Assembly: GCA_031177355.1 (NCBI GenBank)
Contig: JAPSGR010000009.1
Location: forward strand, 16,602 to 55,186
Direction: 5' to 3'
Source: Candidatus Nitrosocosmicus sp.
GTDB taxonomy: Archaea; Thermoproteota; Nitrososphaeria; Nitrososphaerales; Nitrososphaeraceae
DNA length: 38,585 bases
Position numbers and translations under genes: made by a program. This document shows, piece after piece, positions 27,705 through 32,415 of the stretch. The notes under the pieces are model-generated. The model ran no database searches. It was not told the origin of the DNA and saw nothing but the letters and a program-made list of their open reading frames with translations. The stretch's first letter is position 1; each line of letters starts with the position of its first letter.

Positions 27705-28074
27705 ATTTAAATTATTGAAATTATTTTGAATTTTTGGACGCTTTAATTCTAGAAAATGGGATCATCCTAAGTGTAACCCGAGTCTAATATCACCATTGAG
27801 TGCAAAAATATTTAAGTAATATTGAAAATCCATAGCTCATTCTTAAAGTATTAGAACATGACTCGTGCCGTTAAATCTTTATATCTTTACAATGATGAGA
27901 TGAATATTTTCAAAAAATTTTATAATCATACTAAAGTTTAGAAAAAAAGGGAAAGATAATCTCGAATTTGTCCTAATTTATAAAGACTTCTATTTTTAAG
28001 ATAAGTCCATCTAGCTGACATATATCATGCGGTTATCTTTCTCCACATTTTACTCATCACTTTAATCACTTTAT
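27705..28074. other. Gene-free stretch
   Basis: Only a 27-codon plus-strand frame (ATG near 27858) has a start. Its product shows no feature. The rest is AT-rich spacer before the HxlR promoter. Confidence 0.4.
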
Positions 28075-28105
28075 GTTATTAACTATAATTAGGTAAGTAT
28101 ATAAA
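28075..28105 (+). promoter_or_regulatory. Operator/promoter element of hxlR (copy A)
   Basis: This 31-bp element recurs exactly, inverted, at 28862-28892. It contains the dyad TTAACTATAATTAGGTAA (28079-28096; 14 of 18 positions symmetric, TTAnCTA-N4-TAGnTAA) fused to a TATA box (AAGTATATAAA). Binding there would block TBP access. The predicted transcript start is near 28128. Confidence 0.85.
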
Positions 28106-28146
28106 ATAGTACTCGGTTAATAAACATATAAAGGATTTAGGGCAAA

Positions 28147-28602
28147 TTGGTAGAACTCAACACCTCTGACCATTATCAAAAAAAAAATGGAGATCCAGGT
28201 CGTAGAAGGCTAATTGAGAACATGGAATGCAAATGTTGTCCTGTTTATAACACCTTTAATATAATTGGTAAAAAATTTTCTATATTGATATTACGCAATA
28301 TGATTTACGAAAACCAAAAGCGATTCAATGAATTTCTTAATTCTATAGAAGAGATTAATCCAAAGACCCTCTCAATCCGACTAAAAGAAATGGAGAAGGA
28401 TGGTCTCATAAGACGCCAAGTTTATAATGAAACTCCAATAAGGATAGAATATTATCTTACTCAAAAAGGTAAAGAACTGCAGCCTATTTTGGAACAGATG
28501 GCACTATTCTCAGTAAAATATTGTCGTGATCAAATATTTGACAACCCGGATCCTGTTAAGATTGAAAAAATAACTACCGAATCACTTAGAAATTATGTGT
28601 AA
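28147..28602 (+). CDS. HxlR family transcription regulator
   Basis: 151 residues if the TTG at 28147 is used (AAGGAT stands 10 nt upstream), or 126 residues from the ATG at 28222, which gives the usual HxlR start 'MECKCCPVYNTFNIIGKKFS'. The winged helix reads ILILRNMIYENQKRFNEFL, EEINPKTLSIRLKEMEKDGL (recognition helix) and IRRQVYNETPIRIEYYLTQK (wing), then KGKELQPILEQMALFS (dimer helix). C-K-C-C at residues 28-31 is at the position where some HxlR proteins sense electrophiles or oxidants. It most likely represses itself and the MFS gene through the shared operator. Confidence 0.92.
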   Translation: MVELNTSDHYQKKNGDPGRRRLIENMECKCCPVYNTFNIIGKKFSILILRNMIYENQKRFNEFLNSIEEINPKTLSIRLKEMEKDGLIRRQVYNETPIRIEYYLTQKGKELQPILEQMALFSVKYCRDQIFDNPDPVKIEKITTESLRNYV

Positions 28603-28861
28603 ATTAATATACGGATTTAAACACATACTTCAATTTTGGCCCTTTGAAAATCATCTGTTGGAAAGATGAACCATTATTTTGTTATTTTGTAACACAACTA
28701 TAATTTTCTAAATTGATACTATTGACTCTAACATAGCCTGATATGTCTCATCTATAATAACTAATTATGCTTTATAATGAATATTTCACAAATAGACATA
28801 TTTCCGTCTGTTAGTATCAGTCTATTATGTTTAATCTGCTTACCAAAAGTTCACTTAATAA

Positions 28862-28892
28862 TTTATATACTTACCTAATTATAGTTAATAAC
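28862..28892 (-). promoter_or_regulatory. Operator/promoter element of the MFS gene (copy B, inverted)
   Basis: Exact reverse complement of copy A over 31 bp; the dyad is at 28871-28888. On the plus strand its left end reads TTTATATA, the archaeal TATA consensus, with the MFS ATG 40 nt further on. One sequence therefore serves as a core promoter in both orientations. Confidence 0.85.
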
Positions 28893-28908
28893 GAAAGGAA
28901 AGTTAATT

Positions 28909-30408
28909 ATGGTTAAAAATATACGAAAAAATAACGATTTAATCAATGAAACAACTATTGTCAGTCGTCATGCATGGCTCACTTTGACAATATTAAGCAG
29001 TACGCTTTTGACAGTCTTTTTCTCAGAGACTATGCTTTTACCTGCAATACCAGATATAATAATTGAGTTTAATATATCCTATGGTACCGCTGCGTGGATA
29101 TTCAGCGCATACCTTATTGTTGCTGCAGTAATGACTCCGGTTGCCGGCAGATTGTCTGATCTATACGGCAAAAAGAAGGTGCTGTTGACAATGCTTGGAA
29201 TTTATATAGCAGGGCTTATCGCAGGAGGATTCGCAGACAATATAATATCTTTGCTTATAAGTAGGATTATACAAGGAGTGGGATTAGCAGCTATTCCCGC
29301 GGCTTTTAGTCTTCTAAGGGATACTTTTCCCCCCGCCAAGCTCTCTATTGCAGTCGGTGTATTTGGATCTGCATATTCAGCAGGGTCTGTAATAGGATTA
29401 TTAGTTGGAGCTACTATTATACAATTTTTTGGATGGCATACAACGTTCTTAGCTATAGTTCCTTTTTCTATTTTAGTAACTATACTTATTGTAAGATACG
29501 TCAAAGAGGGCGCTACTTTAGAAGAAAAACCCTTATTAAAAGAGAAGAACGATCATTCAAAATTAAACATAAAGAACAAATCCCTTCATATCGACATAAG
29601 AGGAATAATATCATTATCTTTTACGATTTCCTTTTTCTTGATCGCACTTACACTAATTCAAATTGATACAAGTATTAATAGTATGCAGCAAATCATTGGT
29701 GCATTTGCAATATCTGCAATTTCCCTATCCTTCTTTGTCGCAATAGAAAGGAAAATGGAAAATCCATTTGTCAATTTAAAGCTCTTAAAAGATAAAATAT
29801 TGTTACCATCATATATACTGCTAATAGCCACTGGTATTACAATGTTTATGATCTATCCTGCCATTGTTCAATTGGTCAGGAGCCCGATCCCATTAGGATT
29901 TGGAGGCAGTTCTGTTGATGCCGCAAATGTGCAACTTCCGTTCATGATTAGCTTTTTGGTATTTGCTAGCGTCACACCATTTATAATAAACCGAATAGGA
30001 AGTTTAAAACCAATTATCATTGGTGGCATGGTAAGTCTATTTGGCGCCGTAGGGTTATTTACATTTCATTCAACCGAATTCGAAGTATCAGTAAACTTGG
30101 CAATTTTAGCAAGCGGCCTGTCTCTTACAATGACAGCAGCATGGAATTTGGTTGTGTCAATGTCTCCTAAAGAGTATACAGGCATCTCAGTAGGTGTTGG
30201 CGCACTATTGCTATTCATAGGAATGGCAATCGGTCCTGCTCTGGCAGGAGTCTATATGGCGAGTCACGAAACAGTTAGCGGGATACAGGGATCATACCCG
30301 TCAAGTAATTCATATAATCTGGTCTTTATTACTGCAGGTGTCCTTTCAGCAATTACAATTGTATTTTCTTTATTGCTAAAAAGGATAACCTCATCTCGGG
30401 TTAAATGA
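28909..30408 (+). CDS. MFS multidrug exporter, DHA2 (14-TM) type
   Basis: The product is 499 residues. After a 20-residue polar N-terminus come TM1-6: LTILSSTLLTVFFSETMLLP; motif A as 'GRLSDLYGKKKVLLTML'; motif B-like 'LLISRIIQGVGLAAIPA'; motif C 'GSAYSAGSVIGLLVGA', the antiporter motif of drug/H+ exchangers. A charged central linker (about 205-225) is followed by more helices, ending KRITSSRVK. Length and TM count fit the DHA2/EmrB-like group. It exports toxic compounds using the proton or sodium gradient. Controlled with hxlR via the shared inverted operator. GAAAGGAAAG precedes the ATG. Confidence 0.93.
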   Translation: MVKNIRKNNDLINETTIVSRHAWLTLTILSSTLLTVFFSETMLLPAIPDIIIEFNISYGTAAWIFSAYLIVAAVMTPVAGRLSDLYGKKKVLLTMLGIYIAGLIAGGFADNIISLLISRIIQGVGLAAIPAAFSLLRDTFPPAKLSIAVGVFGSAYSAGSVIGLLVGATIIQFFGWHTTFLAIVPFSILVTILIVRYVKEGATLEEKPLLKEKNDHSKLNIKNKSLHIDIRGIISLSFTISFFLIALTLIQIDTSINSMQQIIGAFAISAISLSFFVAIERKMENPFVNLKLLKDKILLPSYILLIATGITMFMIYPAIVQLVRSPIPLGFGGSSVDAANVQLPFMISFLVFASVTPFIINRIGSLKPIIIGGMVSLFGAVGLFTFHSTEFEVSVNLAILASGLSLTMTAAWNLVVSMSPKEYTGISVGVGALLLFIGMAIGPALAGVYMASHETVSGIQGSYPSSNSYNLVFITAGVLSAITIVFSLLLKRITSSRVK

Positions 30409-30749: not shown

Positions 30750-31292
30750 ATGATTTATATTTTCATGCATGCTATTGAAAATAACAAGAATTACAAAATA
30801 TTACTAATACTTAGACATGCAAAATCAAGTTGGAAAAACAAGAAATTGAATGATCATGATCGACCTTTAAATAAAAGAGGAAGAAGAGAGGCAGTCAAAA
30901 TGGGAAAGTATCTCAAGAAAATAAATATGATACCAAATACAGTAGTAACTTCCTCTGCACTTAGGGCAATTCAAACAACCGCTCTTGTATGTAGACATAG
31001 TGAGTATAAGGGATTGGTCAAAGTCAATTCTGGATTCCATCTAGGCGGGATGGATTCATACCTTCATTCTATAGCCGAAACTGCTTCAAATACGACCCGC
31101 CTTTTAATAATTGGACATAACCCGGGACTTGAAGAATTGGTAAGATTTCTTACTTGTAGATCTTTAAAGATACATACATGTACGCTTGTTCAATTAAATC
31201 TGGAAATTGTAAACTGGAAAAATATTGCTTTTCAACAGGTTGTCCGATCCGAAATAATGAATATTTGGAGACCAAAAAAATCGAATAATTAG
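30750..31292 (+). CDS. sixA: SixA-type phosphohistidine phosphatase
   Basis: The product is 180 residues (a second ATG lies five codons in, 30765). It belongs to the histidine phosphatase superfamily: RHG-type motif 'LLILRHAKSSW' with Arg22-His23, then 'DHDRPLNKRGRREA', 'TSSALRAIQT' (Arg72), and second catalytic His123 in 'LLIIGHNPGLEELVRFL'. Length and motif order match SixA, which removes phosphate from phosphohistidine in HPt or PTS-type proteins. In organisms without PTS the substrate is open. The next gene on the strand is a CHAD protein, and SixA with CHAD recurs near polyphosphate genes in other genomes by my recollection. Confidence 0.9.
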   Translation: MIYIFMHAIENNKNYKILLILRHAKSSWKNKKLNDHDRPLNKRGRREAVKMGKYLKKINMIPNTVVTSSALRAIQTTALVCRHSEYKGLVKVNSGFHLGGMDSYLHSIAETASNTTRLLIIGHNPGLEELVRFLTCRSLKIHTCTLVQLNLEIVNWKNIAFQQVVRSEIMNIWRPKKSNN

Positions 31293-31293
31293 C

Positions 31294-31359
31294 GTTTAAG
31301 TAATTATATTACGATAAGACATACACTTTTCATTTCTCTACTTTGTTTAAGTAATTATA
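31294..31359. repeat. Direct repeat of 15 bp between sixA and the CHAD gene
   Basis: GTTTAAGTAATTATA occurs at 31294-31308 and at 31345-31359, spaced 51 bp start to start. Role unknown. Confidence 0.7.
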
Positions 31360-31521
31360 CCTTCATGTCTTCTCAAATTTGTGTAGAGTAACAATTATTG
31401 TCTAAAATCTCCTGGTTATATTCAAATCATTTAATTTCTAAATTTTTGGTTATACATTACTAATTAAAAAATTTTAATGTTCACATAATTCAAATAGTAT
31501 AGGATAATATACTTTTGAAGG

Positions 31522-32415
31522 TTGGTATATTTTTCCATTCATTATGATCTGGAAACCTATATTAATAATTGCACTCGAAATCTTAATAGAGTTTATGTCA
31601 AGTTGGAAAAGTTCTTGTGTAATCCAACTGAAGAAAATATTCATCAGATGAGAACATCTTTACGTAGACTGGAAGCCACCTATCGGTCCAGCCCTAGGCA
31701 ATTCATAAAAAGAAATAATGTAAAAGTCTTTGCTAAAAGAGGTAAGAAGCTTTTTAGAATTAATAGTAGAATAAGGGATATCGACATAATACTCGAGAAA
31801 TTAAACACTGAGGGTAAGATGCCTGACCAAGAACTAAAATACATTGAACGTTCTCTTAAGCATGAGAAACAACTAAAACTTAAAGAAGCGAGAGCTATGG
31901 CACTAGATCTAAAAGAAATCAATGTTTCCAATGTATACTATCGAAAAAACATCAACAAGAAATTTGAACAAAAATCCAAGAAAAGAATATTAAAAATGGT
32001 AAATAAGTTAAAAACCAAAATAGAATTAAACATTCCATTAGTTATTAGTGATGACACCAAAATATTGGAGTTACACGGAACTAGGAAGGATGCAAAGAAA
32101 TTACGTTATTTGATAGAACTTTTACTATATAATAGGGCCAATGTAAGTTCTAATAAGGGGATCGAAAAGAACTCTATTAACTCTGTCATCCAAAATAATC
32201 AACAAGTCTTAGTACATCTTGAAAAAATCCAAGAAATACTAGGCAATATCCATGATTATGACATTACAATTGATTATTTGAACAACTACCATATATTCAG
32301 TGAGCCGCATATAGCTGATGTTATAGCAAACATTGAGAAGATTAGAAAGACAAAATTCGATGAATTTGTTAATTACATTACGCTGAACAATAACCAACAT
32401 AATTATAAGAACTAG
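31522..32415 (+). CDS. CHAD domain protein
   Basis: The product is 297 residues, all helical and very basic. The start is TTG (31522) with GAAGG just upstream. The CHAD signature residues are present: 'NIHQMRTSLRRLEATY' (His41, Arg44, Arg48), 'INSRIRDIDII', 'LHGTRKDAKKLRYLIELL' (His185, Arg188) and 'LEKIQEILGNIHDYDITIDYL'. CHAD domains are conserved-histidine, Arg/Lys-lined helical bundles that bind polyphosphate and localise to polyphosphate granules. No CYTH triphosphatase domain is fused. It is probably functionally linked to the SixA-like phosphatase upstream and to the two kinases that face it. Confidence 0.92.
   Translation: MVYFSIHYDLETYINNCTRNLNRVYVKLEKFLCNPTEENIHQMRTSLRRLEATYRSSPRQFIKRNNVKVFAKRGKKLFRINSRIRDIDIILEKLNTEGKMPDQELKYIERSLKHEKQLKLKEARAMALDLKEINVSNVYYRKNINKKFEQKSKKRILKMVNKLKTKIELNIPLVISDDTKILELHGTRKDAKKLRYLIELLLYNRANVSSNKGIEKNSINSVIQNNQQVLVHLEKIQEILGNIHDYDITIDYLNNYHIFSEPHIADVIANIEKIRKTKFDEFVNYITLNNNQHNYKN

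Follow-up and report, generated by a model that had tools for sequence, protein, structure and literature searches.

An inverted pair of 31-bp sequences in the window (the whole 38,585-nucleotide stretch analysed, from what we take to be a soil ammonia-oxidising archaeon of the genus Ca. Nitrosocosmicus) was identified, by comparison across genomes, as a conserved putative promoter/operator accompanying one HxlR-family regulator in Nitrososphaeria. Its reversed copy, in front of a major facilitator superfamily (MFS) gene, appears to be the second face of a two-way promoter that the common ancestor of the tandem hxlR-MFS loci, which form a monophyletic clade, acquired. The favoured reading, with a probability of roughly 0.75, is that an HxlR/DUF24 regulator controls its own gene through this element, which serves as core promoter and operator in two directions, and that the MFS gene received a copy of the element while a Cys-rich gene was lost.

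The two copies (GTTATTAACTATAATTAGGTAAGTATATAAA at hxlR; Table 1) were exact reverse complements, as previously reported, and formed the longest exact inverted repeat of the window, the runner-up measuring 18 bp. Shuffling the sequence 60 times with dinucleotide composition preserved gave longest inverted repeats of 17.4 bp on average and never above 24 bp, confirming that the pair is real and well beyond chance. The earlier note had described the surrounding DNA as otherwise unalike, but inverted similarity continued beyond the pair at a lower level (73% over 80 nt), indicating that the repeat comprises some 80 bp of promoter region and not merely a 31-bp box. Exact occurrences of the motif TTAnCTA-N4-TAGnTAA in the window were limited to the two element copies, and these were also the only sites matching TTAACTATAMTWAGGTAAGTATWTAAA with up to three mismatches in the whole 2.32-Mb genome. 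In these genome-wide scans, which were pattern searches with allowed mismatches, no extra regulon member was detected in the window's genome within three mismatches of the long core, and one-mismatch matches of the shorter core or of a two-half-site pattern were no commoner there than those of reversed controls.

Table 1. Features of the hxlR-MFS locus, in window coordinates. Offsets are counted from the start (0) of the 28-mer core.
Feature	Coordinates	Strand	Description
hxlR	28147-28602	+	HxlR/DUF24 regulator, 151 aa, TTG start; Pfam HxlR match
MFS predicted exporter	28909-30408	+	499 aa; DHA2/EmrB-like, under all curated cut-offs
31-bp element, hxlR promoter copy	28075-28105	+	exact inverted match; kept upstream of hxlR orthologs
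31-bp element, inverted MFS promoter copy	28862-28892	-	exact inverted match; in 10/10 tandem loci
Arm of longer imperfect inverted similarity	28032-28111	.	80 nt, 73%; partner 28856-28935
hxlR regulatory region	28058-28147	.	offsets ~-20 to +69; homologous to the spacer (85-91 bp) of divergent loci in relatives
MFS regulatory region	28838-28908	.	architecture of the hxlR region reversed; GGTAAGT-like at 14, 30, 45; ACTTTCC/ACTTACC-type half-site at -14
TATA-type tract TATATAAA, hxlR	28098-28105	+	offset 20-27 in every copy; predicted start site ~28128 (23-bp rule, PMC6640164)
TATA-type tract TTTATATA, MFS	28862-28869	+	hxlR-type tract read the other way; predicted start site ~28892
GGTAAGT half-site, offset 14, hxlR copy	28092-28098	+	adjoins TATA tract; most conserved heptamer of the element
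GGTAAGT half-site, offset 14, MFS copy	28869-28875	-	
GGTAAGC half-site, offset 45, MFS copy	28838-28844	-	GGTAAGT-type heptamer (<=1 mismatch) there in 10/10 MFS copies
GGAAAGT, opposite-facing half-site, offset -14, MFS copy	28897-28903	+	ACTTACC-type heptamer there in 9/10 MFS copies

The most likely start codons were TTG at 28147 for hxlR and ATG at 28909 for the MFS gene. The hxlR product scored 87.2 bits against Pfam PF01638 (cut-off 20.8), which identifies an HxlR-type winged-helix domain, and its sequence relatives among solved structures (PDB) were YybR/HypR, YodB and HxlR. Its CCPV motif aligned with the CPV of YybR/HypR, which places a Cys-Pro pair at the N-terminus, and the Cys preceding Pro was retained in all hxlR orthologs listed. 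In named records, the close relatives of the regulator belonged mostly to Ca. Nitrosocosmicus, and no entry in the literature collection searched combined HxlR with Nitrosocosmicus. The MFS product scored 95.7 bits against efflux_EmrB, under the cut-off of 230.2 for EmrB-type membership, and only the MFS superfamily level was reached in family scoring. Downstream of it, at 30750-32415, the window contained genes for a SixA-like histidine phosphatase and, next to it, a CHAD-domain protein, possibly a phosphate or polyphosphate pair.

Tandem hxlR-MFS loci were compared in 10 genomes (G000, the window's own, G002, G003, G005, G007 and G009-G013). The element, in the identical inverted layout, was present at all MFS copies and at 9 of the 10 hxlR copies, bearing out the expectation that it would recur at hxlR/MFS pairs of related genomes. 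The remaining hxlR copy (G003) was degraded, with 7 mismatches, suggesting that self-control of hxlR would not be universal. The variable core bases (AATTAGG, AATAAGG or ACTTAGG) were usually alike in both copies of one genome, with 1.22 core mismatches within a locus versus 2.17 between loci (nine loci; permutation p = 0.014, a guide only since the loci are related). This agreement could stem from a shared binding protein or from gene conversion. In the HxlR tree, the tandem loci formed one clade (support 97/70) nested among divergent ones, and in 98% of bootstrap trees a single change accounted for the tandem layout.

In most relatives, hxlR was divergent from a Cys-rich gene, with one element copy in a spacer of 85-91 bp, while in Nitrososphaera sp. 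CW1 it was divergent from the MFS ortholog itself, with a single, diverged copy. Across these loci the geometry was shared: TATWTAAA occupied offsets 20-27, GGTAAGT-like repeats lay at 14, 30, 45 and 64, hxlR began (TTG) at about +70 and the left-hand gene (ATG) at about -20, be it the Cys-rich or the MFS gene, with the MFS start codon falling exactly in the slot of the Cys gene. Clear GGTAAGT repeats were absent at offsets 30, 45 and 64 in the window's hxlR copy, a point against the two-way promoter/operator. The near-symmetric TATA tract was situated midway, its centre lying about 44 bp from one start codon and about 46 bp from the other, and the divergent spacers held no further A/T tract recurring at a fixed place. 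The earlier suggestion that the TATA sequence works in both orientations was thus matched by the placement of the tract, which suits either direction, its two-way use being a prediction. In Pyrococcus furiosus, one TATA box serves two directions in vitro, with starts 49 bp apart (PMC6640164); combined with the 85-91 bp spacer, this spacing would give the transcripts in either direction a leader of about 20 nt.

As the MFS start codon lies in the Cys slot of a fixed geometry and the tandem clade is nested among divergent loci, the MFS promoter would represent the left face of a two-way promoter that had become duplicated. Its reversed orientation would follow from a divergent ancestor, the target-gene face being turned to the MFS gene. 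A historical explanation is hence preferred to the unusual and economical design put forward in the earlier note, relatives sharing one copy between divergent genes. The MFS copy may have originated by duplication or by fusion with a lost divergent pair. A decayed second hxlR was also considered as the source of the inverted copy and was rejected, as neither profile nor tblastn searches detected an hxlR remnant in the hxlR-MFS spacer.

The pattern ACTATA-N4-RGTAAGTATWTAAA gave 28 exact matches in 70 family genomes, every one of them at a promoter of the module, before hxlR, the MFS gene or the Cys gene; matches at one or two mismatches include chance ones, as the reversed control pattern also matches. 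MFS orthologs with 65-75% identity located elsewhere, without this regulator, did not carry the element. Together with the tandem loci, this upheld the earlier claim that the element stands at both promoters, and showed it to follow this HxlR regulator from genome to genome. Among wider-family regulators below about 55% identity, a recognisable core was mostly missing, another point against the two-way promoter/operator. Three of the MFS orthologs without the HxlR element (L077, L078, L079) had a different palindromic-looking promoter (cacacttatatgcgtgtatatacac), which points to another regulator probably being in control there.

The Cys-rich protein (about 130 aa) combined a variable Cys-rich N-terminus (CxC, CC) with a conserved helical C-terminal part (L133, L134, L137-L139, L144 and others). 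PDB and family searches returned nothing above cut-off, and its AlphaFold model was weak (mean pLDDT 51.6). One tandem genome (G009) possessed the intact Cys gene, hxlR and the MFS gene together, with two element copies, whereas the Cys gene was broken by stops in G011 and G013 and only a partial match was found in G012. The window's genome appears to have lost the gene: sister genomes have intact or broken copies, and no decayed copy was detectable upstream of the window's hxlR. Four Cys-rich genes stood alone with a full element (L211, L212, L213 and L214), and the hxlR remnant to the right of one of them (L211) suggests trans control by another copy of the regulator. In addition, a PIG3-like quinone oxidoreductase gene occupied the left start-codon slot off the main locus in G005 (L258, 2934-3915) and in G011 (C370; L259, 358-1400), the latter with a decayed hxlR on its right of which the first ~24 codons were left.

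From the repeat positions, the N-terminal Cys-Pro aligned with YybR/HypR, the kinds of target genes and the biology of DUF24 regulators (PMC6943732, PMC8063818), we infer HxlR binding, repression by occlusion, two-way use of the TATA tract and an inducer. The near-symmetric TATWTAAA would direct transcription towards hxlR in the right slot and towards the target gene in the left one. HxlR dimers on the GGTAAGT repeats near TATA would exclude TBP/TFB or RNA polymerase in both directions; since the half-sites lie beside TATA and over the predicted start-site region, a bound regulator would compete with these factors, and occlusion of TBP by HxlR is plausible. Release of HxlR would likely be triggered by a thiol-reactive or electrophilic signal. 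In the ancestral state, one copy would have been common to hxlR and the divergent Cys-rich gene, as in most relatives. The MFS gene downstream of hxlR would have received its own copy in the tandem Nitrosocosmicus ancestor, with the target-gene face towards it, and the Cys-rich gene would have disappeared from the window's lineage, leaving hxlR and the exporter as sole sites.

A different operator had been proposed, in which HxlR binds the dyad TTAnCTA-N4-TAGnTAA at two independent promoters inverted by design. The dyad was perfect in the window and well formed in the tandem clade, where 4.1-4.2 of 6 pairs across its axis were complementary, but the value fell to 2.6/6 in Cys<->hxlR loci. The regulators of those loci share 64-82% identity, and GGTAAGT and ACTATA persisted there. 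The features conserved across copies were ACTATA, GGTAAGT, the TATA tract and more GGTAAGT repeats at fixed offsets, giving a wider signature of ACTATA-N4-GGTAAGTATWTAAA with spaced GGTAAGT repeats. None of the candidate dyad axes scored was conserved in all groups, on which basis a single dimer dyad was rejected as the operator. As the inversion also follows from the divergent ancestor, this proposal is considered unlikely.

It is similarly improbable that another regulator binds the element, or that both genes merely share a strong core promoter (BRE + TATA). The TATA tract and a GGTAAG resembling a TFB-recognition element would agree with such a promoter, and the GGTAAG adjoining TATA could partly be that element rather than operator. 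However, a general promoter would recur genome-wide, which the element does not; it follows the regulator and not the MFS gene, and its repeats lie outside core-promoter positions.

In one further genome, a metagenome assembly (G006), the hxlR segment was flipped relative to its neighbours on two contigs (L103/L128, C124, 1-1400; L261, C120, start), with the inverted element followed by an intact Cys-rich gene in place of the MFS gene. Both contigs begin inside the element, and the flip may be a real inversion across the repeats or an assembly error. There is a small chance that the hxlR segment is invertible by recombination, turning hxlR towards the Cys-rich gene in one state and towards the exporter in the other, with the two-way promoters intact and the copies kept alike. 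That gene conversion or inversion across the repeats, and not selection for one binding protein, explains the near-identity of the copies is very unlikely. Although the within-locus agreement given above (1.22 versus 2.17 mismatches) and the flipped order in G006 are in its favour, the core was equally conserved in single-copy genomes, where conversion is impossible, and the G006 order may itself be artefactual. These processes are compatible with the two-way promoter/operator and can act together with it. Finally, carriage of hxlR by a mobile element with terminal inverted repeats, as an 818-bp segment between perfect 31-bp inverted repeats might suggest, was ruled out for practical purposes by the two-copy genome count and by synteny: no further copy occurred in the genome, no target-site duplication was visible at the outer ends, and ten genomes had the same neighbours, with fixed start-codon distances, besides the single copies at divergent loci.

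The preferred reading, a two-way promoter/operator, shares features with several known systems. HxlR/DUF24 proteins (MarR-like; YodB, HypR (YybR), CatR, QsrR and HxlR, in Bacillus and Staphylococcus) are electrophile or redox regulators with a common domain. The present regulator resembles them in its N-terminal Cys-Pro before the winged helix and in its association with promoters of detoxification or export genes, a quinone oxidoreductase being among the likely targets, but differs in its archaeal promoter, with a putative operator around TATA in which several direct GGTAAGT repeats are spaced out. The sequence preferred by YodB is TACT-N7-AGTA (PMC8063818), whereas the core offers at best (T/A)ACT-N11-AGTA together with the direct GGTAAGT repeats. 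As in the two-way promoters of Pyrococcus furiosus (PMC6640164), a near-symmetric TATA tract lies between two start sites, here predicted ones. Two-way initiation in that species is mostly antisense noise, whereas here genes lie on both sides and the putative operator around TATA is portable between loci. A known arrangement in efflux control of the TetR/MarR type is the divergent regulator-exporter pair with a common operator region. Nitrososphaera sp. CW1 is similar, the regulator adjoining the exporter with one control region for both, while the window's pair is tandem, with two inverted copies of the ancestral common region.

Transcription control in ammonia-oxidising archaea has been little explored. 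The module outlines a small predicted regulon made up of the regulator, the exporter, the Cys-rich protein and the quinone oxidoreductase; its candidate operator is retained in different genera of one family and can be traced in related families. If a two-way promoter was transferred whole to unrelated genes, at start-codon distances that vary by no more than a few bases, it would clearly exemplify promoter capture. The uncharacterised Cys-rich protein family is a likely stress effector.

Two further loci are of note. In G020 (L101, 1594-2569), a thioredoxin gene followed the hxlR ortholog, which is consistent with thiol stress. In a locus from Nitrosopumilales (L143, 3826-3950), two opposite-facing partial elements were present, one before a divergent gene encoding 111 aa (ACTATACTTAGGTAAGT|ATG) and the other before hxlR.
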